From Acidobacteriaceae bacterium (GTDB lineage Bacteria > Acidobacteriota > Terriglobia > Terriglobales > Acidobacteriaceae), in assembly GCA_025356095.1 (NCBI GenBank), contig JANXUR010000048.1:1-64000 (forward strand): 64,000 nucleotides of DNA. The letters run 5' to 3'. The notes beneath the pieces are model-generated. The model was not told where the DNA came from, ran no database searches, and saw only the letters and a list, made by a program, of their open reading frames with translations. The position numbers and the translations under genes were made by a program. Positions 696 through 32,661 of the stretch are shown one piece after another. Position 1 is the stretch's first letter, and each line of letters opens with the position of its first letter.

Positions 696-3653
696 ATGCC
701 CGACGAAAAACCTCATCGCCCGGAGGGTGACGCCCCTGCCGGTGGCGGTGCTGCAACACGCAGCGCTTCGGACGCAGACTCTGCTTCGAGCGCGTCGGCC
801 GATTCCATGCCCACACTGATGGACTGGACGCAGGCTTCCGGGCCTACCTCTTTTTCCCAATTCCAAGGCGGCGCGACCTTGCGTTCCGGCGTCCTGCTTG
901 CCCAGCGCTACGAAATTCTAAAAATGCTTGGCGAAGGCGGCATGGGTGCCGTCTACCAAGCCCGCGATACCGAACTCGATCGCATCGTAGCCCTTAAGGT
1001 GATTCGGCCCGAGTACGCACGCGATGAACAGATCATCCGCCGCTTCAAGCAAGAACTGGTTCTCGCCCGCCAGGTTACCCACAAGAATGTCATCCGCATT
1101 TTCGACCTCGGCGAATCCGAGGGCATGAAGTTCATCACCATGGAATATGTGGAGGGTGCGGACCTTCGCGACTTGATTCGCAGTCAAGGCAAAATCGCCC
1201 CTGCGGCAGCAGTGGAGATCATGCAGCAGATTTGTCGGGCACTCGACGCCGCCCACAGCGAAGGTGTGATTCATCGCGACCTCAAGCCGCAGAACATCAT
1301 GCAAGACAAGCAAGGCCGCGTTCTAGTGATGGATTTCGGCCTTGCGCATTCGGTCGAGTCCGTGGGCATGACCCAAACCGGCGCTCTGCTCGGCACCATG
1401 GAATACATGTCGCCCGAGCAAGCCTTAGGCCACGCACTCGACGCCCGGTCGGACCTGTTCACGCTGGGCCTCATCTTCTTTGAACTGCTGACCGGAACCT
1501 TGCCTTTCCGCGCGGAAACCTCGCTGGCGAGCCTGCTCAAGCGGACACAAGAGCGCGCCGTACCCATCTCTGCTCTGAACCGAGATGTGCCGCAGGCGCT
1601 CAGCAACGTGGTGGCCAAGTGCTTGGAGCGCGACCCCAAGCAGCGTTACCAGCACGTTCGCGAAGTGTTGGCCGACCTCGACGCCTGGCAGCAGGATGGC
1701 AAAGTCTCAATCACGACGTCGCACTTGTGGGCTGCCCGCGCCAAAGACCTTGCGAGCAAGAAGTTTGCTGCAGCAGCAGCCGTGGCTGTGGTCGCCGTGG
1801 TGGCCGTTACGGGCACTTGGTGGCTTACTCGTCAACAGCAGCCGGTTGCCGAGCATGCCCCCATCTCCGTGTTGGTTTCTGACTTCCAGAACGAAACCGG
1901 CGATTCAATATTTAACGAGACGCTGGAGCCTGCTTTTAGCACCGCACTGGAAGGTGCGTCTTTCATCAGCTCGTTCAGCCGGGGACAAGCTCACCGTATT
2001 GCAGCCCAACTCAAGCCCGGTGCCACCCAAATTGACGAAGCACTCGGTCGCCTCGTCGCCGCGCGCGAGAGCGTCAACGTCGTTGTGGCGGGCTCACTGG
2101 TAGCAGATAGCGGCGGCTACTGGCTTTCCGCCCGTGCCGTGGACGCCCCCACCGGAAAGAGCATCGCCAGCGAAAGCATCCGCGTCAAAACCAAAGATGA
2201 CGTGCTGCTTTCAGTAGGCAAGCTTGCGGCTAAGATTCGTCAGAAGCTTGGTGACGCCACACCCGAATCTGCGCAGCTTTCGCAAATGGAAACCTTCGGC
2301 TCCGGTTCGCTGGAGGCTGCCCACGAATACGCCGTCGCGCAGGATCTAGGCTCTGCTGGCAAGTGGGAAGAGTCTGTGACGCATTACCAACGCGCCGTGG
2401 ACCTCGACCCCAACCTGGGCCGCGCCTACGCGGGTCTCGCCGCGGTCTACGCCAACATGGGCCGCCGTACCGACTCGGAAAAGTATTACCAGATGGCGAT
2501 GTCGCGCATTGACCGCATGAGCGATCGCGAAAAGTATCGCACCCGGGGCGGTTATTTTCTAATGGTGCGCGAACCCAAAGAAGCCATCCACGAATACGAA
2601 ACGCTGGTTAAACAGTTTCCAGCGGACCTTGCTGGCTACAGCAATCTGGCTTTGGCGTATTTCTATCTGCGCGATATGTCGAAGGCACTGCAAGTCGGCC
2701 AGCGCGCAGTGGATGCTTTCCCCAAATTCCTTTTGCAACGCAACAACCTCGCTCTCTATGCCATTTATGCAGGCAACTTCGCAGAGGGTGAAAAGCAGGC
2801 GCGGCTGGTGCTCGGTCAAAATCCGAACTACGTGAACGCTTATTCCGCATTGGCAATGGCGCTCACCGGGCAGGACAAGCTGGCCGAAGCCTCGCAAACC
2901 TACCAGAAGCTGCAAGCGCTGAGTCAGCGCGGCACTTCCATGGCCGCCATCGGCTTGGCCGACCTTGACCTCTATCAGGGCAAGCTGGCAGAAGCCCTGC
3001 CCGTTCTCGATGCTGGTACCAAGGCCGATAGCGATAATAAGGATGATGGTGCGGCTGCGGCCAAGCAAATCGCATTAGCACAGTTGCAACTGGCTGCCGG
3101 AAAGAATGCACCCGCAGTGGCTGCAGCCGACAAGGCAGTCGCACTCGACAAGAGTGAATCCACGTTACACGCCGCTGGGGTCGTCTACGTGAACGCGGGG
3201 CGGGTTAGCAAAGCCCAGGCGCTGGTTTCGCAGCTTTTGGCTCATGTTGAACCCGAGCCACGGCTCTATGGCACACTTTTGAAGGCTGAAATCTCCCTGA
3301 AGCAGGGCAACGCCAAAGATGCCGTTACCACGCTGAAGCAAGCGCAGGATATTTCTGATAGTTGGATTGGCCGCTACGATCTGGGCCGCGCCTATCTGGA
3401 ACTCGGAGCTTTCCCGGAAGCAGATGCAGCACTGGAAGAATGTCTGAAACGTCGCGGCGAAGCGGTCGCGCTGTACCTCGACGACGTGCCCACCTTCCGG
3501 TCGTTGCCTCCGGTGTACTACTATCTGGCGCGCGCGCAAGAAGGCTTAAAGAGCCCTGCCGCAGCCGAGTCATTCCGCACATTCCTCAAGCTCCAGCCCA
3601 AGGGCAGCGGTCCGCTCTCCGCCGACGCCGAGAAGCGCTCCGCAGGCAAATAG
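696..3653 (+). CDS. membrane Ser/Thr protein kinase with C-terminal TPR region
   Basis: The 985-residue protein should phosphorylate Ser/Thr of partner proteins and sense something beyond the membrane. After a low-complexity N-terminus comes a Hanks-type kinase domain at about 70-335: glycine loop GEGGMG near 79, VALKV lysine, HRDLKPQN near 193, DFGLA and MSPEQ. A hydrophobic segment near 357-378 is the single membrane span. Residues about 390-540 resemble a TolB/FlgO-like domain (ISVLVSDFQNETGD). The rest is a run of TPR-like helical pairs. By topology this half is extracytoplasmic. The ATG at 696 has an upstream TGAGGCG. No partner phosphatase or substrate is adjacent. The architecture is common in Acidobacteriota; substrate unknown. 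Confidence 0.9.
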   Translation: MPDEKPHRPEGDAPAGGGAATRSASDADSASSASADSMPTLMDWTQASGPTSFSQFQGGATLRSGVLLAQRYEILKMLGEGGMGAVYQARDTELDRIVALKVIRPEYARDEQIIRRFKQELVLARQVTHKNVIRIFDLGESEGMKFITMEYVEGADLRDLIRSQGKIAPAAAVEIMQQICRALDAAHSEGVIHRDLKPQNIMQDKQGRVLVMDFGLAHSVESVGMTQTGALLGTMEYMSPEQALGHALDARSDLFTLGLIFFELLTGTLPFRAETSLASLLKRTQERAVPISALNRDVPQALSNVVAKCLERDPKQRYQHVREVLADLDAWQQDGKVSITTSHLWAARAKDLASKKFAAAAAVAVVAVVAVTGTWWLTRQQQPVAEHAPISVLVSDFQNETGDSIFNETLEPAFSTALEGASFISSFSRGQAHRIAAQLKPGATQIDEALGRLVAARESVNVVVAGSLVADSGGYWLSARAVDAPTGKSIASESIRVKTKDDVLLSVGKLAAKIRQKLGDATPESAQLSQMETFGSGSLEAAHEYAVAQDLGSAGKWEESVTHYQRAVDLDPNLGRAYAGLAAVYANMGRRTDSEKYYQMAMSRIDRMSDREKYRTRGGYFLMVREPKEAIHEYETLVKQFPADLAGYSNLALAYFYLRDMSKALQVGQRAVDAFPKFLLQRNNLALYAIYAGNFAEGEKQARLVLGQNPNYVNAYSALAMALTGQDKLAEASQTYQKLQALSQRGTSMAAIGLADLDLYQGKLAEALPVLDAGTKADSDNKDDGAAAAKQIALAQLQLAAGKNAPAVAAADKAVALDKSESTLHAAGVVYVNAGRVSKAQALVSQLLAHVEPEPRLYGTLLKAEISLKQGNAKDAVTTLKQAQDISDSWIGRYDLGRAYLELGAFPEADAALEECLKRRGEAVALYLDDVPTFRSLPPVYYYLARAQEGLKSPAAAESFRTFLKLQPKGSGPLSADAEKRSAGK

Positions 3654-3805: not shown

Positions 3806-6800
3806 CTACTGCGTCACGTTCAGCGTGATGGCTGAGGTGTGCTTCAGGTTGTTCTTGGCGTCGGTCGCCGATACGGTGATGGTGTAGGTTCCGGCGGGTG
3901 TTTTGGGTGCCAATGTGCTGGAACTGCTTCCGCAGCTTGCCAATCCCATCACCCCAATCGTAAGTAGCACCAGCGCCATTACCATCCACATCCGCCTGCG
4001 GCCCCGCCATCCCAACAGCACCAGCCCCGGCAACACCAGCGCCAGCCATGACTGCCGATGGAACTGAATCGGCTCGGCATTGCCCTGCGCTGTAATCGTC
4101 ACACCGGTAAAGATCGTCACCGTCGCCGTGGCATCCGACGACCCATCCGAGGTCAACGATGCCGGGCTAAACGTGCAGGCGCTTGCTGCTGGAAGTCCCG
4201 CGCAGCCAAATGCCACCGTACCCGTATAGCCGCCTTGCGGGGTGACTGTGATCGTTCCCACCACAGAATTCGCACCCGCCACCGACAAACTCGCCGGTAG
4301 CGCAAGCGCAAAGTCAGGCTGTGGCTTTACCTCGATCGTGGTCGAGTTGCTGCTCTGCTGCGTCGGATTGCTCTGGTCTTGTACCGTAAGCGTAAAGCTT
4401 GACGTGCCCGCAGCCGAGGCCGTGCCACTGATGGTTCCTGCAACCGCATCCAGCGTTAAGCCAGCGGGCAGTGCTCCCGCCGTCACCGACCAAGTGTGTG
4501 AGCCGATTCCTCCGGTAGCGGCTAGTGTCGCGGTATAAGCTTTGCCCGCAACCGCGGCAGGCAGTGTCGCTGGCGAGGTAACAGCCAGCTTCGTACCTAC
4601 GCGCGTGGTAAGGGTCTCGGTCAGAGTCTGCGGCGGAACCGCAGAGTCATTCACCGTGACCAGCGTAATGGTGCCGAGCGGATTCGCCGTGACAGGCGAA
4701 CCGCTTATTTGCCCAGACGGAGCCAAAGCCAACCCGGAGGGCAGCGAGGATCCGGCAGCCACCGTCCAAATGAGCGGCGGTGTCCCGCCGGTTGCGCTCA
4801 GCGTCGCCGCAAAGGGCTGGCCGACTACTCCGTCCGGAATGCTCGTCGCCGTCATCCTCATCAGTGGAGCACCGACAAGCAGCGTGACCGGAGTGCTCAC
4901 CATCTGTGGCGGAGTGCTTTGGTCTGTGGCTGTCACCGTAAAGCTCGCCGTGTTTGCCGTCACAGGCGTACCGCTGATCGTCCCAGTGATGGCGTTGAGC
5001 GTCAACCCACCCGGCAATGCACCTGCCGTCACCGACCACGTACTCAAGCCGATGCCGCCAACGACTGTGGTGGTAGCGCTATAAGCTGTGCCGGCGACAG
5101 CAGCGGGCAACGCCGGCGACGAAGTGACTGCCAGCTTGGCCCCTACCCGCACCACAACCGCTGATGTCACACTCTGCGCCGGTATTGCAGAGTCGGTTGC
5201 CGTGATGCTGGTGGTGGTACCAGTCGCGTTCACCACCGTCGGTGTGCCGGTAAGTTGACCGGCGGGAGTCAGGCTCAACCCTGCCGGAAGCGATGAACCC
5301 GGTGCCACGCTCCAGGTAAGCGGCGGCGTGCCCCCCGTGGCGGTCAGCGTGGTGGCATAGGCTTGGTCTGCCACTCCATCAGGAATGCCCGACGTGTTTA
5401 CGCTCATCAATTGCGCAGCCACGTTCAACGACGCGGTCGTACTCGCGGTCTGCGGCGGATTGCTTTGGTCCTGCGCCACTAAAGTGAAATTCGCTGCCCC
5501 CGCCACAGTGGGCACACCAGAAAGTGTTCCCGCCGTTGCATCCAGCACCAGATTCGCCGGAAGGCTACCCTGTGTGACTGACCACAGATAGGGGCCAAGA
5601 CCGCCGCTTGCAGTAAGCGAAGCCGTGTACTGCTGCCCCGCCACTGCCGCCGGTAACGTAATTGCAGCCTGTCCCGCCGATAGCACGGTCAGCGCATGCA
5701 GCGTCAGGCCTACTGTTACCACTTGCGGCGGATTGCTGGAATCCGAAACTTGAAAGCGCGGACTATACACCGTGCCCGGCAGGTTGGAAGCATCCGCCGT
5801 GCCACTCAGGCTGCCGTCTGCTGCCAGTGTAAGACCAGAAGGCAGTGCGCCCGACGTCAGCGCATAGGTAAGCGCACCCGTGCCTCCTGCCACCGGCAGC
5901 TTCGCCGAGTACGCCGACCCGATAATCGCATCCGGCAGCGTACCTGCGGTGAGCGCCACCACTGGCGCAATGTGCACCGTCAGCGTCTGCGTGGAAACAT
6001 TGGGCGTACCAGGAAAGGAGTCACTGACCCGCAACGCGAACGTATAGTCCCCCGCCACCGTCGGCGCACCGCTGATGACGCCCGTCGCCGCATCCAGCGC
6101 TAATCCCGGCGGCAGACTGCCGGAATATAGGCTCCAAGTCAGGGGAGCTTTGCCGCCCAATGCCGTCACATTTTGCGAATAGGGCGCGTTCGATACTCCA
6201 TCGGGCACACTTAACGTGATGAGCGTCAAAGTGATATTGTTCGCGCCAGCCACCGGCGACGCCGCATGAGCAACCACTACCGGCTGCAGGGTTTGCAGCA
6301 ACAGTTGCATCCCTGCCACGGTCGTGTTGCCGCGCAAAATTACCTGCCCTGTCTCTCCCGGTGCCAACCATAGCGTCGCGTTCGACGTATTGGGGTCGAA
6401 GATGTCTGGGTCAGAAAGCGACACTACCGGCGTCAGTACCGGATTGATAATGTTCGCAAAGACGTTGTAGTCGGCCTTTTGCGCCAGTTGGCATCCGGTG
6501 AGTGTGTCCGCTGCGTTAGTCAGATACTGCTTGGCCAACACCAGTTGCAGCGTGATATTCGTCGGGTTGGTGCCAAACAACTTCACCGCGTACGTCGCCG
6601 ACGTGTTTCCCGTATTCGTCACCGGAAACACTGCATCGGCCAAAGTGGTGTTCTGGATCGCCGGATTTTGAATCGCAGGATTTTGAATCGCCGGGTTTTG
6701 AATGGCCGGGTTCTGAATCGCAGGATTCAGCGCCGTGTTGTAGTTCTGATTCTGAATCGCCGGGTTCTGAATCGCGGGATTCTGAATCGCCGGGTTCTGG

Positions 6801-9307
6801 ATCGCAGGATTGGTGAACGGACTGGTGATCGCTGGCGGTTCCAGCACCGGGCTGTACACCTCGGCACTCAGAATCGAAGGATTCTGCACCGAACCAAAAC
6901 TATCAGGATCTGAAATCGCCGGGGTCGTCGGATCGGCATTCAGGGTCAGGTTCCCATTCAGTGTGCTGCCCACCGTCTGGTCGGCCGCAGTTACCGTCAC
7001 ACTTGCCGTCGGATTCGCCGACTGAACAAACACCGACCGCGCGATGCTTGAAAGCGCTGGCACACTCACCGCTAGCGACAGCACCAGCGAACCTTGCTGC
7101 GAAAAAGAAGCAGAACCAGCCGGATCAATACCCCCTCCCGTCAGCGCTGGCTGATTGGCAATGGTGAGCGTAAACGTGCGATCAATCGTCGTGTTGTTGT
7201 GCAAATACACCGGAAATGCCCGTTCGATCAGCCCACTATTGTCCGGCACAAAGCCCAGCGTCTTCGCGTTGCCCGGCGAACTCAGCACCAATCCGGAATC
7301 AATACGCGAGGTAAACACGTCCTGATTGCGGCTGCCTGCATAGCGGTTATCGCAAGGCGTCACCGTCTGCGTGGGGTCGAATTTGCTCACATTGGTGGAC
7401 CCCGCCGGATTCGACGTGGAATACACCGGCGTGTACTTGGTCCAGTCACCATCGGGCGGTGCCACTACGTTGCGGTTGTCGGTCCATGTCGCAAAAAACG
7501 ACTGGGGATTCGCACCGCTGGTGTTGAAGTGCCACTGCCCGTTTTGGTAAACGAATGCAGACACCCCGGCAATGTCAATATAGTCGCCGATAAACGGCTT
7601 GGTGCCTTGCACAAACATCGGCAGCCCCGGAGGATTGGTCTCCAGTTGCTCCGCCTGCGTGGTGGAGTCATATGGATTGATGCCGTACTGGTAGCGCGAC
7701 ACCCGGAACGGCGAGAACTTCGGCACCCCCAGAAGGCCGGTGGGTTGCGGCGTCGCTTGCGCACCCTGAACATCAATCGTGTGGCGGCGCGTGGTCACCG
7801 TCGCGTCATCTACATAACTATTAAAGACCAGCGGGCTCGCGGGGTCAGAACCCAGTTCCCCCACCAACTCGCGCCCTTCACTGTACCGGTTCGAGTCAGG
7901 CTCGGGACTAAACAAGCCCAGTGTGTGATCCTCGCGCAGATCGTAATACACCAGCGTCAGTTTGCCCGCATTAAAGCTCAGCGCAGGCATTACTTGGTGG
8001 CCGCGGCCTGAAAGATTCGTAAACGGATTGCCTTGGTCGTCGTACACCAGTTCGTTGTCAATCGGTCGGGGCGCGCTCGGCCAGCTCACACCATCAGCAG
8101 AAACTGCCACGTTAATCCGGCCATCGCCACTGGTATGTCGCCGCGAGATCGCCAGATACACTCGCCCGGTATCGTCCACCGCTAGCGCAGGATACGAGTT
8201 GGTGCGGAATGTGGTCTCTGAGTCGCCCTCATCAAATGGGCAGAAAGGCTGGCTCTTATCCGTGTTGCAGATAGTCGGAAACTGAATCGCACGCACCGGC
8301 GTGCTCCAGGTCTGGCCGCCGTCAGTGGATTTGCTCACCATCACGCCGTCGCCCTGCGTAGCGTCAGAAAAGCGTCGCCACGCAGCGTACACCGTAGCTT
8401 GCGCGCCGCCTGCTGTGCTGGGGTCAATCGCCAGCACCACAGACTGGTTCGGTGCGGCGGTTTGCACGATGCTGGCGGGCGCACTCCAGGTAGCACCGCA
8501 ATCATCCGAATGCACCACTTTTATCTGGCTGGTCGCCCCGGCGAAGTTGCTGTAAGCAACAATCACCCGCCCTGCGGGCAGGGTCTGCGTCCCCGCACTG
8601 CCATCGGGATTCTTGTAGTTCACCGTGCAGGTGGCACCCCCGCGCGGAATATCCACCACCATCGAAGGCTTGTCGAGAAAGTTTGCCGCCGTTCCCGTAT
8701 CCACCGCAACCGTTCGCACGTAGCGGATAGGGTCGGTGGGGCTAAGGCTGGTTAGCCCTCCAGCCGCTATGGCAGCGGCGTCGCCATTCTCTTTGTTGTT
8801 GTTGTCAATCAGCGTGGCAACAAACACCGAGCCCAAACCACCGGTTCCCCGGTTGAACGCAATGCCGCTGTAGTAGAACAGCCCGTTGGTTCCCGGACGT
8901 ACCCACGGGTCGGCCCCTGCCTGATACCCATGGATCGGCGAAGCCAATCCCTCCGGCGACGTGTCTTCCGGATATCCCGGCAGCAGTACGCTCTTCCAGC
9001 TCAACCCACCATCAAAAGACTTATAAAGCCCCAGCCACGCGTCGCCCTGCTCTGGAACCCCCAGCAAACCGGCCAGGTCGACGGTGCGATAGTCATTCGC
9101 ACCGGCCACCAGGTGCAGCGAATTGCGGGTGGAAACAGCGATCGAGGGTTCATTCTGCCGTTGGAGAAAGGGGTCGCCATTCGTCCAGTCGGTGCCAGAA
9201 ACCATGTTTATGTTCTTACTCGCCAGCGGCGTCTGCGCCTGCAGGGCGCCCGGCGAAAGGCCCGTTACCACCACCAACATCACACTTGCCAAGACATGCA
9301 ATTTCAC
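3806..9307 (-). CDS. giant secreted Asp-box / NPAIQ / He_PIG repeat protein
   Basis: The 1833-residue protein begins with a clear signal peptide ending ALQA before QTPLAS. The N-terminal third carries Asp-box motifs typical of sialidase-like propellers: SFDGGLSW near 97, DDCGATW near 267 and STDGGQTW near 327. Residues about 832-884 hold nine NPAIQ pentapeptides in blocks of four and five. From about 1020 to 1665 there are seven putative-Ig (He_PIG) modules with the recurring pattern LPAGLTLD...GTISGTP. A last Ig-like module is interrupted at 1754-1793 by two hydrophobic segments around RGRRR, the second ending in the lipobox-like LASC. This suggests an exported, surface-associated adhesin or binding protein rather than a proven glycosidase; no catalytic set was confirmed. 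The gene is monocistronic and converges on the kinase gene. Confidence 0.85.
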   Translation of the reverse strand: MKLHVLASVMLVVVTGLSPGALQAQTPLASKNINMVSGTDWTNGDPFLQRQNEPSIAVSTRNSLHLVAGANDYRTVDLAGLLGVPEQGDAWLGLYKSFDGGLSWKSVLLPGYPEDTSPEGLASPIHGYQAGADPWVRPGTNGLFYYSGIAFNRGTGGLGSVFVATLIDNNNKENGDAAAIAAGGLTSLSPTDPIRYVRTVAVDTGTAANFLDKPSMVVDIPRGGATCTVNYKNPDGSAGTQTLPAGRVIVAYSNFAGATSQIKVVHSDDCGATWSAPASIVQTAAPNQSVVLAIDPSTAGGAQATVYAAWRRFSDATQGDGVMVSKSTDGGQTWSTPVRAIQFPTICNTDKSQPFCPFDEGDSETTFRTNSYPALAVDDTGRVYLAISRRHTSGDGRINVAVSADGVSWPSAPRPIDNELVYDDQGNPFTNLSGRGHQVMPALSFNAGKLTLVYYDLREDHTLGLFSPEPDSNRYSEGRELVGELGSDPASPLVFNSYVDDATVTTRRHTIDVQGAQATPQPTGLLGVPKFSPFRVSRYQYGINPYDSTTQAEQLETNPPGLPMFVQGTKPFIGDYIDIAGVSAFVYQNGQWHFNTSGANPQSFFATWTDNRNVVAPPDGDWTKYTPVYSTSNPAGSTNVSKFDPTQTVTPCDNRYAGSRNQDVFTSRIDSGLVLSSPGNAKTLGFVPDNSGLIERAFPVYLHNNTTIDRTFTLTIANQPALTGGGIDPAGSASFSQQGSLVLSLAVSVPALSSIARSVFVQSANPTASVTVTAADQTVGSTLNGNLTLNADPTTPAISDPDSFGSVQNPSILSAEVYSPVLEPPAITSPFTNPAIQNPAIQNPAIQNPAIQNQNYNTALNPAIQNPAIQNPAIQNPAIQNPAIQNTTLADAVFPVTNTGNTSATYAVKLFGTNPTNITLQLVLAKQYLTNAADTLTGCQLAQKADYNVFANIINPVLTPVVSLSDPDIFDPNTSNATLWLAPGETGQVILRGNTTVAGMQLLLQTLQPVVVAHAASPVAGANNITLTLITLSVPDGVSNAPYSQNVTALGGKAPLTWSLYSGSLPPGLALDAATGVISGAPTVAGDYTFALRVSDSFPGTPNVSTQTLTVHIAPVVALTAGTLPDAIIGSAYSAKLPVAGGTGALTYALTSGALPSGLTLAADGSLSGTADASNLPGTVYSPRFQVSDSSNPPQVVTVGLTLHALTVLSAGQAAITLPAAVAGQQYTASLTASGGLGPYLWSVTQGSLPANLVLDATAGTLSGVPTVAGAANFTLVAQDQSNPPQTASTTASLNVAAQLMSVNTSGIPDGVADQAYATTLTATGGTPPLTWSVAPGSSLPAGLSLTPAGQLTGTPTVVNATGTTTSITATDSAIPAQSVTSAVVVRVGAKLAVTSSPALPAAVAGTAYSATTTVVGGIGLSTWSVTAGALPGGLTLNAITGTISGTPVTANTASFTVTATDQSTPPQMVSTPVTLLVGAPLMRMTATSIPDGVVGQPFAATLSATGGTPPLIWTVAAGSSLPSGLALAPSGQISGSPVTANPLGTITLVTVNDSAVPPQTLTETLTTRVGTKLAVTSPATLPAAVAGKAYTATLAATGGIGSHTWSVTAGALPAGLTLDAVAGTISGTASAAGTSSFTLTVQDQSNPTQQSSNSTTIEVKPQPDFALALPASLSVAGANSVVGTITVTPQGGYTGTVAFGCAGLPAASACTFSPASLTSDGSSDATATVTIFTGVTITAQGNAEPIQFHRQSWLALVLPGLVLLGWRGRRRMWMVMALVLLTIGVMGLASCGSSSSTLAPKTPAGTYTITVSATDAKNNLKHTSAITLNVTQ
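6655..6812 (-). repeat. 15-bp coding repeats (NPAIQ pentapeptide)
   Basis: A 15-base unit encoding Asn-Pro-Ala-Ile-Gln is repeated nine times inside the giant secreted protein: four copies, then the spacer NQNYNTAL, then five copies. Codons vary between copies at synonymous positions, so the peptide seems conserved rather than freshly amplified. It does not match the A(D/N)LXX pentapeptide-repeat consensus. Confidence 0.9.
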
Positions 9308-24145: not shown

Positions 24146-26797
24146 ATGATTCTTCACAATCTGGCTGTGATTCGCTTGGCTGCACTGTGTTTGTTTGCAA
24201 CCGCCTTTGCCGCTCCCCTCTTAGGTCAAGCCGCCGTGAATGAAGCGCTTGAAACCAGAACCGTTTACGTTGACGCGGTCACCGGCACAGACTCCAACCC
24301 CGGCACTCAGTCCGCCCCTTACGCCACCATTGGCGCGGGCCTCAGCACCGCCGTCTCAAACAACCGCAGCAGCCTCGGCACCCTAGTCATCGTAAATCCC
24401 GGCACCTATCGTGAAGGCATCACCCTCAACTCCGGTGCGAATGACACCTCTTTGCCGTTCACTTTGCAGGCTGCCACCAGCGGTACCGCCATCGTGAGCG
24501 GCGCAACTCAGTACACCAGTTGGACCGCCTACAGCAAGAACACCAACATCTTCACACACTCGTGGACGAACAATTGGGGCATCTGTTCCACGCAAGGCAA
24601 TGCGGGCGCTCCACCGCAACCGGATATTATGCGCCGCCGCGAAATTGTCATGGTCAACGACACTCCGGTGACTCAGGTGTTGACTCTCGCCGACGTCATC
24701 CAAGGTACCTTTTACGTGGATGAGTCGCTGAATCTAATGTATTTGTGGCCTCTGGCTGGCACCACGCTTTCCTCCGCCGACGTTGAAGTCGGCAACCAGT
24801 CTGGCATGCTTACTTTGAACGGCAAAAGCAACTTCGTAGTGCGTGGCTTGACGTTTCAGTACGATTCCTCCTGCCGCGATGGAGCCGCCGTCACCGTCTC
24901 TGGCACCTCCAGCAACTTCCTGTTCGATAGCGACACCTTCGTTTGGAATAACGCCATGGGGTTGAAGATCAACTACGCGGGCACCAACCTGAGCGTGCTC
25001 AACTCCACCGCCAACCACAACGGCCAAAGTGGCTTTCACGTCACCCAGATCAAGAATTCGCTCTTCCAGAACCTCATCGCCAACTACAACAACTGGCGCG
25101 GCGCGCAAGGCACCGTTTACAACTGGAATGTCGGCGGCTTCCACTCGTTTCAAGGCCACACCGAGACCGTCACCGGTCTGCAGGTTGCCTACAACCTGAC
25201 CTACGGCACACACTGGGATACAGACCACAAGAACGTCACCAACACCGCCATCCAAAACATCAGCAACCTGCTGGTGGGCGACTTCTGGGAGAAAGACGAG
25301 GGCCCAATCACCCTCACCGGCGGCATCAACTGCTACAACGGCCTGGTCTTGGAACCGCTCGCCTTTCCCGGTTCTGGTATCGGGCTGCGCAGCACCGAGA
25401 ACGTGACCATGTCGGGCAACGTTTTCTACAACAATGCCAGCTCCATACTCACCGTTTTGGGAACCCCCGGCGGCGATCCCGTTACCGATTGGGAGACCAA
25501 CCAGTCCTACAACCTCATCACCAGCGGCCTGAACCTGCAAGATAATCTTTTTGACGCGCAAGATACCCAGTACGTGTTTGTGGATCAAGGCTTGGGTGGC
25601 TCCGACTGGTCTACATTCCTCAACGGACAGACCAGCGGACTCCCCGGCTCACCGCGCTTCGCTTCGAATAGCAATACTTGGTGGAACCCTACCACCACCA
25701 GCGCCTATACCGTACCCGCGCCTAGCTCGGGCACAGTGGAAGACTTTGCCGCGTGGAAGAGCCAGACCGGGCAGGATTCACTCTCCCAGTTCACCGCGCC
25801 AGCTACCGACCCCGCCACCACCTGCGCGGTTCCTATCACTGGCTCCACCAGCCCTGACTTTTGGCTCGTTACTCCCACACCCGCAGTCACTGCCGGCGCG
25901 GACGGCAGCGCGCCCGTCAGCTTTGCTGTGAGTCCGCTGGGCTCCTTCTCTGGAAACGTGACTCTTACAACCAACACTTCAGCGGTCGCGGGCCTTACCG
26001 GGAGCTTCACCCCCGCAGTGGTGACCGGTGGCTCGGGCACCACCACCTTCAACTTGGCCAGCACCACCAGCACCAAGGCTGGGACCTATCAGATTCCCAT
26101 CTTTGCCAGCAGCAACGGCAAAGTGCGCAGTGCGACCATCTATGTCACCATCCCGGTGACCAGTCTTCGTTTTTCCGCCTCCACGCTGAACTTCCCCACC
26201 ACGGTGGTCGGCAGCAGCAGCTCTCCGGTTTCGTTCACCATCAAGAACAACGGCAGCAAGAGCATCACCGGGGTTACCTTTACCGTTCCTACTGGCTTTA
26301 CGCAGACCAACAATTGCAGCGCTACCATAAAAACCGGAGTCACCTGCACCGTCAATGTCACCTTCACGCCCTCTTCAGCCAGAACCTTCACCTCAACCCT
26401 TACCGTGACCGATAGCGACGCCTCAAGCCCGCAGTCGGTCACCCTGAATGCAACTTCTGTGCCAGCACCTACGGCTTCCGCCACGCCGGGCTCGCTCAAC
26501 TACGGCAGCGTCAAAACCAGTTCCAGCTCCAGCATGACGGCCACGTTGCAGAATTCCAGCACGACTTCTCCGCTGACGCTCACCAAACTTCTGCTGACAG
26601 GCAGCGCCAGCAACCAATACTCCCAGACCAACGCCTGTCCGCTATCACCGGCGACGTTGGCTCCCCTGGCAAGTTGTACCGTTACGGTGAAGTTCGCGCC
26701 CACATCCACTGGCCTAAAGAGCGCCACGCTGGAGTTTGACAGCAACGTGCACAGCGGTCAGACAACCGTTTCGCTGAGTGGTACAGGAACAAAGTAG
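24146..26797 (+). CDS. secreted beta-helix protein with two ASH-type repeats
   Basis: The 883-residue protein has a signal peptide ending LLGQAAV. Residues about 35-560 resemble right-handed parallel beta-helix proteins: TVYVDAVTGTDSNPGTQSAP and YATIGAGL at the start, typical of DUF1565/pectate-lyase-like folds, then repeated N-rich turns (FLFDSDTFVWNNAMGLKINY). A linker domain follows (about 585-670), then two ASH/choice-of-anchor-type immunoglobulin repeats (about 672-883) with LNFPTTVVGSSSSPVSFTIKN and paired cysteines. It should act outside the cell, perhaps on polysaccharide or as a surface layer; no catalytic residues were identified. A larger paralogue lies 770 bases downstream. Confidence 0.85.
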   Translation: MILHNLAVIRLAALCLFATAFAAPLLGQAAVNEALETRTVYVDAVTGTDSNPGTQSAPYATIGAGLSTAVSNNRSSLGTLVIVNPGTYREGITLNSGANDTSLPFTLQAATSGTAIVSGATQYTSWTAYSKNTNIFTHSWTNNWGICSTQGNAGAPPQPDIMRRREIVMVNDTPVTQVLTLADVIQGTFYVDESLNLMYLWPLAGTTLSSADVEVGNQSGMLTLNGKSNFVVRGLTFQYDSSCRDGAAVTVSGTSSNFLFDSDTFVWNNAMGLKINYAGTNLSVLNSTANHNGQSGFHVTQIKNSLFQNLIANYNNWRGAQGTVYNWNVGGFHSFQGHTETVTGLQVAYNLTYGTHWDTDHKNVTNTAIQNISNLLVGDFWEKDEGPITLTGGINCYNGLVLEPLAFPGSGIGLRSTENVTMSGNVFYNNASSILTVLGTPGGDPVTDWETNQSYNLITSGLNLQDNLFDAQDTQYVFVDQGLGGSDWSTFLNGQTSGLPGSPRFASNSNTWWNPTTTSAYTVPAPSSGTVEDFAAWKSQTGQDSLSQFTAPATDPATTCAVPITGSTSPDFWLVTPTPAVTAGADGSAPVSFAVSPLGSFSGNVTLTTNTSAVAGLTGSFTPAVVTGGSGTTTFNLASTTSTKAGTYQIPIFASSNGKVRSATIYVTIPVTSLRFSASTLNFPTTVVGSSSSPVSFTIKNNGSKSITGVTFTVPTGFTQTNNCSATIKTGVTCTVNVTFTPSSARTFTSTLTVTDSDASSPQSVTLNATSVPAPTASATPGSLNYGSVKTSSSSSMTATLQNSSTTSPLTLTKLLLTGSASNQYSQTNACPLSPATLAPLASCTVTVKFAPTSTGLKSATLEFDSNVHSGQTTVSLSGTGTK

Positions 26798-27458: not shown

Positions 27459-27540
27459 TTGGAGAACGCAGTATGAATACCCCGTGCTGAAGCGTCTGGG
27501 AGCTCTCCCCTTCCAGAGGATTCAGCGCTGGCCAACAGTG

Positions 27541-27558
27541 AACTCGGCACGCCGAGTT
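27541..27558 (+). promoter_or_regulatory. palindrome AACTCGGC-AC-GCCGAGTT next to the ribosome-binding site
   Basis: An 8-bp perfect stem with a 2-base centre sits directly before the GGAGG of the second beta-helix gene. It may be a repressor operator as DNA or a hairpin that affects ribosome access as RNA; neither is proven. Confidence 0.5.
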
Positions 27559-27567
27559 GGAGGCAGT

Positions 27568-30500
27568 ATGACCTACCTCAAGAGTGCGCTTGTAGCGCTC
27601 TTCTCTCTGGCCATTTTCACAGTCCCCTGCGTTGGGCAGGCGAATGTGAACGAAACTCTGGAAACAGCCACGGTTTACGTGGATGCAGTCAACGGCAGCG
27701 ACGCACGCTCTTGCGCACAAGCTGCCACCTCAACCAACGCCCTCAAAACCATCAGCGCGGCCATCACTTGCGCCCTCACCAACAACCAGGGCAGCATCGG
27801 GACAAAGATATGGGTCGAGCCCGGCACCTATCGCGAAACCCTGTCGCTGACTTCCACGACCCGCGATACAAACCTGCCCATGACGATTCAGGCCGTTACC
27901 AACGGCACGGTCACCATCTCGGGCGCGGTTACTTATACCGGTTGGACCCCTTACAGCGCCAACACCAGCATCTTCACCAACTCGTGGACCAATGATTGGG
28001 GTCTGTGCCCGCCCAGTTCTGCTCCCGGCGCGCCACCGTTTCCGGACATTGTGCAACGGCGGGAAACCGTCTTCGTAAACGGTGCCTTGCTCACGCAGGT
28101 GCTCACGCTGGCGGATGTGGTCGCTGGCAGCTTCTTTGTGGATGAAAGCGCCAATAAGATCTACGTGTACCCGCCCGCAGGCGTGAACCTAACCACGGCA
28201 GACGTGGAAGTGGGTACGCTCTCTAATCTGGCGACCATTACCCGCGCTCAGGTGGTTTTGCGCAACCTGACCTTTCAGTATGCGAACTCGTGCCGCGATA
28301 ATCCGGCCGTGACGATCACGGGAGCCTCGGCCAACAACATCGTGTTCGATACGCTGAACGTCAACTGGAACAACGCTAACGCGGTCACCATCAACAATCC
28401 GGCATCCAACTTTACGGTGACCAATACCACCGCGAATCACAACGGACAGAGCGGGCTTTCCGGCTATCAGGTAAAGAATGGCCTGTGGCTGAATGACACC
28501 GCCAACTACAACAACTGGCGCGGTGCGCAAGGTGCCATCTACAACTGGAATCTTGGCGGCTTCCACCCCTTCTCGGTGCACAGTTCTACTGTCACCGGGA
28601 TGAGCATGTATTACAACCAGACCTTTGGCGCGCACTGGGATACCGATCACCAGAACATCACCGCATCGGGAATGGTCTCGGTCAACAACCTGCTGGTGGG
28701 GGATTTCTACGAGAAAAACGAAGGCCCTATCTCGATCACGAACAGCACCTACTGCGGCAACAATTTAGTCGCTTCTCCGCAGGCTTCGTTCGGTGCGGGC
28801 GTGGAATTCCGCGACTCGATGAACGTCACCCTGCAAAACGACTACTTCTACAACAACGGTGTGGCCTCACTGAACTTTCAAGGCACGCCCGGCGGTATCA
28901 ACTGCTCCACCCACAACCCGGAGTGCGTCACCAACTGGGAAACTGGCCAGCAGTATGACCTCCAAAACAAATTCCTGACCCTGAGCGGCGACTCGTTCTG
29001 GGCACTGGACGCGACCCAGAACGACTTCCAAGACAGCTATTTGGGCGACCAGAACGGCAATAACGACTGGACCAGCTTCATCACAACGCTGAACTCCTCC
29101 GGCAACACTTGGTGGAATCCCAGCCTAAATCCGCCGTTTGAAGTTCCGCCCACGGCCAGCAACCCGCTGCCCCAGAATGTGGACTTTGCCGGGTGGCAGT
29201 CTGCCACCGGGCAAGACATCAGCCGTTCCACCTTCTCGCAACCCGCACTGCCTTCCACGGCGTGTGTGGGCACGGTGACGGCCGCCACCCGGCGTGGTCA
29301 CAATCAAGCCGGCAAGAAAACCAAGGCCAACCCCTCGGTGGTTCTGTCCGATGCCCCAGACTACTGGCTCGTGGCCTCCGCCAGCGGTGTGACCATTGAC
29401 CTTACTGGCGCGGCCCAAAACACCTTCACCCTGGCTCCGGTTGGCACCTTCGCCAGCAGCGTCACCTTGAGCGTAAATACCTCCAGCGCACCGGGCGTTC
29501 ACGCCACGCTATCTCCCACGACCTTCGCTACCGGTAGTGGCGCAGCAGCCATGTCCCTCACCACAGACCCCGGTACCGCAGCCGGAACCTACCAGATTCC
29601 CGTCATGGCCACCGGCGGCGGTCTGGTGCACACGTCCACCTTCTTTGTGACGGTGCCGCCGGGCTTTGCACGCCTCTCGACGGTCAATATCTCATTCCCC
29701 AATCAGGTGGTGAGCACCACCAGCGCGCCCATGAATGTGACCCTGACGAACGTGGGCACAACCACCATCACTGGCATCACACCGGTGGCCAGTTCCAACT
29801 TCGCCCAGACCAACACCTGCGGTACCAGTCTGCTGGCGGGCGCGAGCTGCATCTTCAGCGTTACCTTCTCGCCGAGTACCCTGGCGGGCACTTACACAGG
29901 AACCCTGACAATTTCGGATTCCGATGCTTCCACCCAACAGGTGGTGAACCTGACGGGCAACGCCATTGCGTTGGCAACCGCGAGCTTCAGCCCCGGCAGC
30001 CTGCTCTACGGCTCGGTGCCGCTGCAAACGGCCAGCACCATGACCGCAACCTATACCGACACCAGCACTCAGTCGCCCATTTATGTGACCAGTATTCTGA
30101 TCACTGGTGCGAACACGGGTGACTACTCGGAAACTGACAACTGTCCGCGTTCGCCAGCACAACTGGCTCCGCTGGCAAGCTGCACTGTCAATGTCACTTT
30201 TACTCCGACGGCGATCGGCTTACGGCAGGCCAACGTCAGCGTCACCTCAAACACCGTACTTGGCACCCAGACGCTCACCATGAGCGGCACCGGATCTGCC
30301 TCCACGGCCAACGTCACCCTGACGCCGACAGCGCTTTCGTTCGGTTCCATCACCGTCGGCACCAACAAGGTGCTGACCTCCACCGTCAAAAACACCAGCA
30401 GCGCGGCCGTCACCATCACCAGCCTTACGCTGGGTGGCGCAAACAGTAATCAGTTCATTTTTACAGATACCTGCCCGCGCGCTCCGCTTACGCTCGCTGC

Positions 30501-32661
30501 CAATGGAACCTGCATTATCACTGGCACCTTCACGCCAGTCGGGTTGGTGGGCAACTTAGGCGGCGCCGTCAGCGCCTCCGTCACGCTTACTGATACCGGC
30601 AACCCAACGACGCAGATTCTCAACCTCAATGGCACGGTCGTAGTTCCGGCCCCTACCACGTCATTCACGCCCACTTCGCTCACCTTCCCCAATACGAATG
30701 TGGGAATGTCGAGCTTGCCGCTGACGGTGATACTCACCAACACCTCTGCGATTGAACCGTTGCTCATCAGCAGCATCCCTACCACCGGCACCAACCTAAC
30801 CTCTTACTTGGTGGCGAGTACGTGTCCTATCGCGCCTGCAACTTTAGCGCCTTTAGGCTTATGCAATATCGTGGTCACGTTTGTGCCCACCGCCGCGAAG
30901 TCGTTGCCCGCATCGGTCACGGTGTTCAGCAACGTAAGCACCGGCAGTTCGGTGTTCAATCTTTCCGGCACGGGACAAGCACCCACGGTTTCGCTGACTC
31001 CGGCGACGCTTGCCTTCGGCAACCAAAACGTCAACGTGAAGGTCACCAAGACCTCTACCATCAAAAACACGTCCACGACGCTGCCGCTGCACATCACCAG
31101 CATTACGGTGACCGGCTCGCACGTCGCCAGCTACACCCTGTCTGACACTTGCCCGCGTTCGCCCGCTACTTTGGCAGCAGGCGCCAGTTGCGTAGTCACC
31201 GTAAACCTAAATGCCACCACCACCGGCGACCAATCGGGTTCGGTCACCATTATGGACGACATTGTCGGTGGGGTCAGCACGATCGCGATTACCGGCACCA
31301 CGTTTGCTTCGGCCACACTCACCCCCACCACCATTGCCTTCGGTAACGTGGACTACGCCAACTCTTTGGGTTCGGGCGTAGGGGCTTCGAAAACCCTGAC
31401 TTCGATCCTTAAGAACACGTCGCTGCAAGCTTCGCTGACCATTGCCAGCATCGGACTGAGCGGCAGCAACACCCGCTACTATACGGAGTCTGACAACTGC
31501 GGTGCCTCTCTTGCCGCAGGAGCAAGCTGCACCATCACCGCCGTCTTCACTCCCACCATCTCGGGAGCGTTGAACTCGGCCATCACCATCACCGATGGCG
31601 TGAGCGCTGGCACCCAGACCATCACCTTGACGGGTTCTGGGGTGCTGCCGGTTCCCACGGCGAAGTTCGCCCCCACCACGTTGGCCTTCGCTTCTGTCAA
31701 TGAGGGAACCACGCTCAGTAAGACGGCAACCCTCACCAACAGCAGCACAGATACGCTGGCCGTGCTGAAGATTACCAGCCTGATTCTGGCTGGCACCAAC
31801 AGCAGCGAATATACCGTGACCCACAACTGCCCGCTTTCGCCCAGTACGCTGGCTGCGGGAGCTTCGTGCACCATTACGGCCGTCTTCGCCCCAGTTAACC
31901 TCAACGCCACGACTGTAACCTACACCGCGACTGACAATGCTTCGCCCGCCACCCAGGTGTTAACCCTGACTGGTACCGGCAAAGCTGTGGTTCCGACAAC
32001 AAGCTTTACGCCCGCCACCGTCAGCTTTGGCAACATTAACGAAGGCACTTCGAGCACCATGACTTCGGTGTTCAAGAATACCTCCACCAGTTCGTTCGCC
32101 ACCCTGACCATCACTTCCATCGGTGCAGTCACTGGCACGGACTCCAACCAGTTCGTTGTCACCAACGCCTGCCCACTTTCGCCGGCGACCCTCGCTGCCG
32201 GAGCCTCGTGCACCTTCACCGTCGTTTATTCGCCCACCAACACCGACTCACCCAGCGTCACGGTTAAGGTGACGGACAACGAATCGGCGGGCTCGCGTAC
32301 CTTGACCATCAAAGGCACAGGCCTCAAACCCGTGCCCACCGCGACCCTCACTCCATCGTCACTCACCTTCCCCTCCACCACGGTAGGGACGGCAGCGGCA
32401 CCCATGACGACCACCCTCACCAACACCAGCACCAACACCTTCGCGACCTTGGCCGTCACCACTTTGACGACGACCGGCACGGCAGCGGCAGACTACACCG
32501 CGACCAGCAACTGTCCGGCGAGTCTGGCAGCGGGTGCGACCTGTGTGGTGACCGTCAACTTCACGCCTGCGGCAAAGAACACGCGCGCCGCGACGCTGAA
32601 CGTCAATAGCAACGTGAGCGGTGGCAAAACGACTGCCTCCCTTACCGGCACCGGCCAGTAG
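27568..32661 (+). CDS. giant secreted beta-helix protein with nine ASH-type repeats
   Basis: The 1697-residue protein is a longer paralogue of the gene upstream. I chose the ATG at 27568, which has GGAGG at the right distance and starts a signal peptide (MTYLKSALVALFSLAIF...CVGQA). The N-terminal beta-helix region (ATVYVDAVNGSDA; YNNWRGAQGAIYNWNLGGFH) is closely similar to its paralogue over about 560 residues. A basic insert, AATRRGHNQAGKKTKANPS, near residue 570 is missing there. Nine ASH/choice-of-anchor-type repeats of about 105 residues follow, each with LxFGxxxVG, SLxNTS, a CPxSPATLAAGASC cysteine pair and a final LTGTG. Likely a long surface or extracellular adhesin-like protein. A strong terminator follows. 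Confidence 0.87.
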   Translation: MTYLKSALVALFSLAIFTVPCVGQANVNETLETATVYVDAVNGSDARSCAQAATSTNALKTISAAITCALTNNQGSIGTKIWVEPGTYRETLSLTSTTRDTNLPMTIQAVTNGTVTISGAVTYTGWTPYSANTSIFTNSWTNDWGLCPPSSAPGAPPFPDIVQRRETVFVNGALLTQVLTLADVVAGSFFVDESANKIYVYPPAGVNLTTADVEVGTLSNLATITRAQVVLRNLTFQYANSCRDNPAVTITGASANNIVFDTLNVNWNNANAVTINNPASNFTVTNTTANHNGQSGLSGYQVKNGLWLNDTANYNNWRGAQGAIYNWNLGGFHPFSVHSSTVTGMSMYYNQTFGAHWDTDHQNITASGMVSVNNLLVGDFYEKNEGPISITNSTYCGNNLVASPQASFGAGVEFRDSMNVTLQNDYFYNNGVASLNFQGTPGGINCSTHNPECVTNWETGQQYDLQNKFLTLSGDSFWALDATQNDFQDSYLGDQNGNNDWTSFITTLNSSGNTWWNPSLNPPFEVPPTASNPLPQNVDFAGWQSATGQDISRSTFSQPALPSTACVGTVTAATRRGHNQAGKKTKANPSVVLSDAPDYWLVASASGVTIDLTGAAQNTFTLAPVGTFASSVTLSVNTSSAPGVHATLSPTTFATGSGAAAMSLTTDPGTAAGTYQIPVMATGGGLVHTSTFFVTVPPGFARLSTVNISFPNQVVSTTSAPMNVTLTNVGTTTITGITPVASSNFAQTNTCGTSLLAGASCIFSVTFSPSTLAGTYTGTLTISDSDASTQQVVNLTGNAIALATASFSPGSLLYGSVPLQTASTMTATYTDTSTQSPIYVTSILITGANTGDYSETDNCPRSPAQLAPLASCTVNVTFTPTAIGLRQANVSVTSNTVLGTQTLTMSGTGSASTANVTLTPTALSFGSITVGTNKVLTSTVKNTSSAAVTITSLTLGGANSNQFIFTDTCPRAPLTLAANGTCIITGTFTPVGLVGNLGGAVSASVTLTDTGNPTTQILNLNGTVVVPAPTTSFTPTSLTFPNTNVGMSSLPLTVILTNTSAIEPLLISSIPTTGTNLTSYLVASTCPIAPATLAPLGLCNIVVTFVPTAAKSLPASVTVFSNVSTGSSVFNLSGTGQAPTVSLTPATLAFGNQNVNVKVTKTSTIKNTSTTLPLHITSITVTGSHVASYTLSDTCPRSPATLAAGASCVVTVNLNATTTGDQSGSVTIMDDIVGGVSTIAITGTTFASATLTPTTIAFGNVDYANSLGSGVGASKTLTSILKNTSLQASLTIASIGLSGSNTRYYTESDNCGASLAAGASCTITAVFTPTISGALNSAITITDGVSAGTQTITLTGSGVLPVPTAKFAPTTLAFASVNEGTTLSKTATLTNSSTDTLAVLKITSLILAGTNSSEYTVTHNCPLSPSTLAAGASCTITAVFAPVNLNATTVTYTATDNASPATQVLTLTGTGKAVVPTTSFTPATVSFGNINEGTSSTMTSVFKNTSTSSFATLTITSIGAVTGTDSNQFVVTNACPLSPATLAAGASCTFTVVYSPTNTDSPSVTVKVTDNESAGSRTLTIKGTGLKPVPTATLTPSSLTFPSTTVGTAAAPMTTTLTNTSTNTFATLAVTTLTTTGTAAADYTATSNCPASLAAGATCVVTVNFTPAAKNTRAATLNVNSNVSGGKTTASLTGTGQ

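Follow-up and report, generated by a model that had tools for sequence, protein, structure and literature searches.

A split terminal Ig-like domain with an internal lipobox as a putative C-terminal lipid-anchoring module of exported acidobacterial proteins

A giant exported protein encoded in the window (the whole stretch of 64,000 nucleotides analysed here) ends in an Ig-like domain that is split by two hydrophobic spans and a lipobox. We consider it probable that this tail is a module for C-terminal lipid anchoring that forms part of the Ig-like domain; it would be processed by Lgt and LspA and would leave the ectodomain tethered by a lipopeptide. What the computation shows is how the tail is arranged, how far it is conserved and that the Ig fold is predicted to be completed despite the interruption; this is described before the mechanism that we derive from it.

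The protein of 1833 amino acids is encoded on the minus strand at 3806..9307, as judged from the open reading frame (9307..3806) and from domain matches, and it contains a BNR-like N-terminal region, He_PIG Ig-like domains, NPAIQ repeats and the split terminal Ig-like domain. Inspection of the sequence places a Sec signal peptide of the signal-peptidase-I type at its start (VKLHVLASVMLVVVTGLSPGALQA; 9236..9307, minus strand), and no lipobox was seen by inspection at this N-terminus. The first part of the terminal domain, residues 1664-1735 (4103..4318; this and all following features of the domain lie on the minus strand), comprises strands A-E with a conserved pair of cysteines and was delimited by a profile and an AlphaFold2 model. 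The second part, residues 1803-1833 (TPAGTYT...NVTQ; TPAGTYTITVSATDAKNNLKHTSAITLNVTQ; 3809..3901), comprises the last two strands, F and G, and was delimited by the profile, the model and a structure match. What the initial annotation had described as an Ig-like module split by a hairpin with an internal lipobox is confirmed by these boundaries, and the insert between strands E and F, which had been put at about 60 foreign residues, measures 67. It opens with a linker that leads from strand E to the first hydrophobic span (residues 1736-1752; 4052..4102; placed by the model and by measured positions). This span, TM1 (SWLALVLPGLVLLGW, residues 1753-1767; 4007..4051), was placed by its measured position and its hydrophobic core, and it is followed by the basic cluster RGRRR (residues 1768-1772; 3992..4006), which the tail alignment suggests to be both a cytoplasmic turn and the n-region of an internal lipoprotein signal. 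The second span, TM2, would serve as the h-region of this signal and has LAS at its end (residues 1773-1791; 3935..3991; placed by its hydrophobic core and measured position); it is followed directly by Cys1792 (codon at 3932..3934), the lipobox cysteine of LASC, which was identified by its conservation among tails, and by a Ser-rich linker, GSSSSTLAPK (residues 1793-1802; 3902..3931; measured position).

The tail belongs to a catalogued family. Residues 1726-1831 match the NCBIfam entry NF058595 (invert_tail, “lipo-invert putative C-terminal anchoring domain”; release 20.0) with 54 bits, the curated cut-off being 37 bits, and with E=1.9e-14; the match covers positions 1-112 of the 113 in the profile and ends at residue 1831 of 1833, that is, at the C-terminus of the protein, and the order of elements in the family is the same as in the window protein. 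Given this E-value and the recurrence of the arrangement in 90 non-redundant tails (the window's included), collected from loci found with the NF058595 profile, the arrangement is far beyond chance. Beyond a name and a putative role, the library entry offers nothing, and our literature searches found neither a paper naming the family nor a clear published precedent for such an anchor. The earlier remark that no mechanism had been described therefore stands as far as papers are concerned, but has to be amended in that the domain itself was already catalogued. New here are the recognition of the split Ig domain, the E/F position of the insert, the conservation statistics and the fold prediction.

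NF058595 matches above the cut-off number five in the genome from which the window derives, and its contig C10 additionally carries one divergent copy. Among the sampled genomes of the phylum, 49 of 396 pass the cut-off. The tail is found in each of the 44 genomes sampled from the window's family, which agrees with the statement in the initial annotation that similar inserts occur in Acidobacteriota proteins, and five further genomes, outside the family, also pass. True tails are present in two of these five, which belong to one genus of another family (L026 and L032) and possibly acquired them by transfer, whereas the sequences of the remaining three, when read, proved not to be tails. Weak matches outside the family were likewise read individually and turned out to be uninterrupted Ig domains, N-terminal lipoproteins or unrelated sequence. 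In a genome with the record name “Terriglobia bacterium”, five matches exceed the cut-off, and a plasmid search using the tail returned no match.

The lipobox cysteine is present in 90/90 tails, an invariance that is partly selected, since the NF058595 profile includes the cysteine column. The residue before it (-1) is G, A or S in all 90 (62 G, 18 A and 10 S), as compared with a fraction of 0.32 for the same three residues among neighbouring TM2 positions. At +1, directly after it, the tails have G, S, A, N or T and never Asp, and the residue at -3 is L, V or I in 43 of the 90 tails, which is looser than in the textbook lipobox. Selection of interrupted terminal domains by their Ig flanks alone yielded a set of 110, drawn from loci found with the cysteine-including profile, and [GAS]C[GSANT] occurs in the insert of every one of them (110/110). 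Conservation of the cysteine, which had been proposed at the outset as a check, is thus found together with an invariant lipobox context. The hairpin itself has a hydrophobic core in TM1 of 89/90 and in TM2 of 90/90 tails and a basic cluster before TM2 at a median of 24 residues upstream of the cysteine. Lys and Arg together average 5.0 residues between 45 and 15 positions upstream of the cysteine and 0.4 over the 15 positions downstream, a distribution that, read from composition, corresponds to a positive-inside pattern. The two cysteines of the N-terminal part of the Ig domain are near-invariant (81/90 and 78/90 tails); they likely form a disulfide, which would stabilise this part.

Several lines of evidence indicate that the two parts flanking the insert are one domain. 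First, when the two parts were joined without the insert, the resulting profile ran through the junction in its matches to 40 uninterrupted Ig domains from the same loci (best E=1.8e-24). Second, AlphaFold2 (76 tails) assigns a pLDDT of about 93-97 to the strands, which lie at 8-77 and 149-175 of the modelled segment, and of about 52-77 to the insert of the window protein; the input was the uncut chain, and hence the model speaks for the fit of the strands and not for their retention after a cut. Third, VIA-align superposes model residues 7..175 on residues 404-502 of a Micromonospora sialidase (98 residues, rmsd 1.8, Z 13.1), a match that is a single contiguous Ig domain and whose alignment spans the insert, and a Foldseek search with the model has Ig-like domains among its matches. 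A paralogue on contig C10 of the same genome (L006; 1318-2112), which scores 36 bits against NF058595 and so falls just below the cut-off, has about 90 extra residues between the cysteine and the last two Ig strands. This extra segment is domain-sized and resembles a beta domain, but is modelled mostly at a pLDDT below 50, whereas the last two strands reach 94-96 and the N-terminal part is mostly above 90. As modelled, the terminal Ig-like domain is a single domain whose fold is completed across the insert, and the fold check that accompanied the initial annotation is answered in its favour by the insert-free profile, the AlphaFold2 model and the sialidase alignment alike.

From these observations we infer topology, acylation, cleavage and final membrane as follows. 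The N-terminal signal peptide would direct export of the protein through Sec, TM1 would act as a stop-transfer segment with the Arg-rich turn kept in the cytoplasm, and TM2 would re-enter the membrane as an internal lipoprotein signal with its lipobox on the periplasmic side. Cys1792 would be acylated by Lgt, after which LspA would cut just before it to give a lipopeptide of about 42 residues bearing the last two Ig strands; these strands would fold into the terminal Ig domain and stay there, such that a lipid would hold the ectodomain although no peptide bond would bridge the cut. Lgt/LspA processing that follows export of the ectodomain is the simplest reading because it makes use of both the invariant cysteine and the obligate small residue before it. 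In lipoprotein processing, it is cleavage by LspA, and not acylation alone, that calls for a small residue at -1, and since such a residue is obligate in the tails, it argues for LspA cleavage. The suggestion that the second half of the insert resembles a lipoprotein signal has held up: the half made of basic cluster, hydrophobic span and lipobox behaves like one in its -1 residue and its Lys and Arg pattern, and, when TM2-cysteine pieces were detached, some gave weak but correctly registered matches to the N-termini of known lipoprotein families. The Pfam lipoprotein-site model matched 1 of 10 detached segments, below its cut-off. Lgt, LspA and LolA are all encoded in the protein's own genome, and 61 of 70 complete tail ORFs have, by a simple rule, a Sec N-terminus of the signal-peptidase-I type, so that most tail proteins would be exported without an N-terminal lipid. 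Taken to its full extent, the reading states that the cut by signal peptidase II falls within an Ig-like domain, that the hairpin is left or discarded, that the giant ectodomain is held non-covalently on the membrane or cell surface by the small lipopeptide with the last two strands, and that this module sits on many exported proteins throughout one family; that whole might equally well turn out right or wrong.

The same two hydrophobic cores and basic turn, found in nearly all tails, could also be taken to mean that the chain stays intact, TM1-RGRRR-TM2 forming a helical hairpin in the inner membrane under the Ig domain, with the cysteine either unmodified or acylated without cleavage. No new mechanism is required in that case, and the Ig fold, as modelled, forms without any cut. 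However, an uncleaved hairpin has no need for an invariant cysteine with an obligate G, A or S before it (90/90), nor for a Gly/Ser-rich linker directly after it, and we regard this explanation as unlikely.

Under the Lgt/LspA reading, the fate of TM1 matters: with this span retained, the protein would be kept in the inner membrane, and there would seem to be little need for the lipid. A version of the lipid-anchor reading in which a second membrane protease removes TM1 and the hairpin is discarded, whereupon ectodomain and lipopeptide would travel, non-covalently joined, to the outer membrane or cell surface, is one that we can put forward only tentatively and hold to be rather doubtful. Pro-rich spans occur in substrates of some intramembrane proteases, and TM1 has the higher Pro content of the two spans (4.7% vs 0.8% in TM2, with a small control set). 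In addition, the +1 position, at which Asp never occurs in the tails, offers no inner-membrane retention signal of the E. coli type, and LolA homologues are present. Against this stands the lack of a shared cleavage motif before TM1, as LPxTG, PEP and a cysteine are each found there in 0 of the 90 tails. The distribution of exosortase is no more favourable: there is no match to PF09721 in the protein's own genome and none in 26 of 60 family genomes overall, which disqualifies the enzyme as a general partner. The sole exosortase-like neighbour of a tail gene, an exosortase/archaeosortase-like gene directly downstream in genome G249 (L043, 6857-7837; TIGR04178, 42 bits), is unique to that genome, with no relative among the 59 further genomes sampled from the family, and was rejected as a partner as well. 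A dedicated second LspA was ruled out, LspA being single-copy in 42/44 family genomes, and no dedicated protease for the tail, nor any candidate that fits its distribution, was found.

The sequence MWMVM directly after RGRRR in the window protein raises the further idea that an internal start codon, Met1773, additionally yields the segment of TM2, lipobox and strands as a lipoprotein in its own right. Such a start was rejected as highly improbable: Met occurs in the corresponding segment of only 16/90 tails, and no stand-alone copy of the segment is among the matches listed.

Compared with known systems, the tail shares with Lgt/LspA lipoproteins the basic n-region, the hydrophobic core, the small residue at -1, the invariant cysteine and a Gly/Ser-rich start after it, LASC with its preceding hydrophobic stretch and Ser at -1 being a lipobox in the usual sense. 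In ordinary lipoproteins, however, the signal lies at the N-terminus of the precursor, whereas here it is internal, the cysteine being residue 1792 of 1833, and it follows a complete exported ectodomain and a preceding span at about 40 residues from the C-terminus. Retention of a domain by a strand has parallels: in chaperone-usher pili an Ig-like domain is completed by a strand of another chain (donor-strand complementation), and in the GAIN domain of adhesion GPCRs the receptor ectodomain, once cut, stays attached non-covalently through a terminal strand. Both are analogies only, with no shared sequence, and the strands of the tail would sit on a lipopeptide cut from the same precursor. A C-terminal span with an Arg-rich end is also characteristic of the tripartite MYXO-CTERM, PEP-CTERM and GlyGly-CTERM tags. 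The likeness of the first half of the insert to a C-terminal sorting signal, noted early on, could not be upheld for any known kind: as judged from the 90 tails, the tail would work like a sorting tag but fails the defining features of LPXTG (no such motif before the span), of PEP-CTERM (no PEP motif, no exosortase in the own genome) and of MYXO-CTERM (no cysteine before TM1), and the TM1 piece scores 9.6 bits against the MYXO-CTERM model, whose cut-off is 20. Of the systems that have been studied, MYXO-CTERM nevertheless comes nearest, although its cysteine and span stand in the reverse order. Its invariant cysteine, proposed to be lipidated before cleavage by myxosortase, lies ahead of the span, and the end of the tag is cytoplasmic (PMC11980579), whereas the tail has its cysteine after a second span, beyond which the chain would run on outside.

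If our reading is correct, large exported proteins would be anchored at their C-termini by the ordinary lipoprotein machinery, without a dedicated sortase, and a domain would be cut from within while its halves were kept together through folding. This would explain the cell attachment of many large Ig-rich proteins in the family, give a function to a catalogued yet unexplained NCBIfam domain and provide a natural system for non-covalent surface display.

The tail is also modular, as homologues of the body of the giant protein in other genomes end without it wherever their ends are readable. The NPAIQ pentapeptide repeats of the window protein (residues 833-886) have a counterpart in a homologue from L126, where NPDIS repeats occupy a similar region. 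Elsewhere in the window, no invert-type tail was seen at the C-termini of two large exported proteins (24146-26797 and 27484-32661), both of which carry Ig domains of the ASH/HYDIN type. The gene of the giant protein is adjoined, in convergent orientation, by a gene that reads as protein kinase-like (696-3653) and has a C-terminal TPR-like region.
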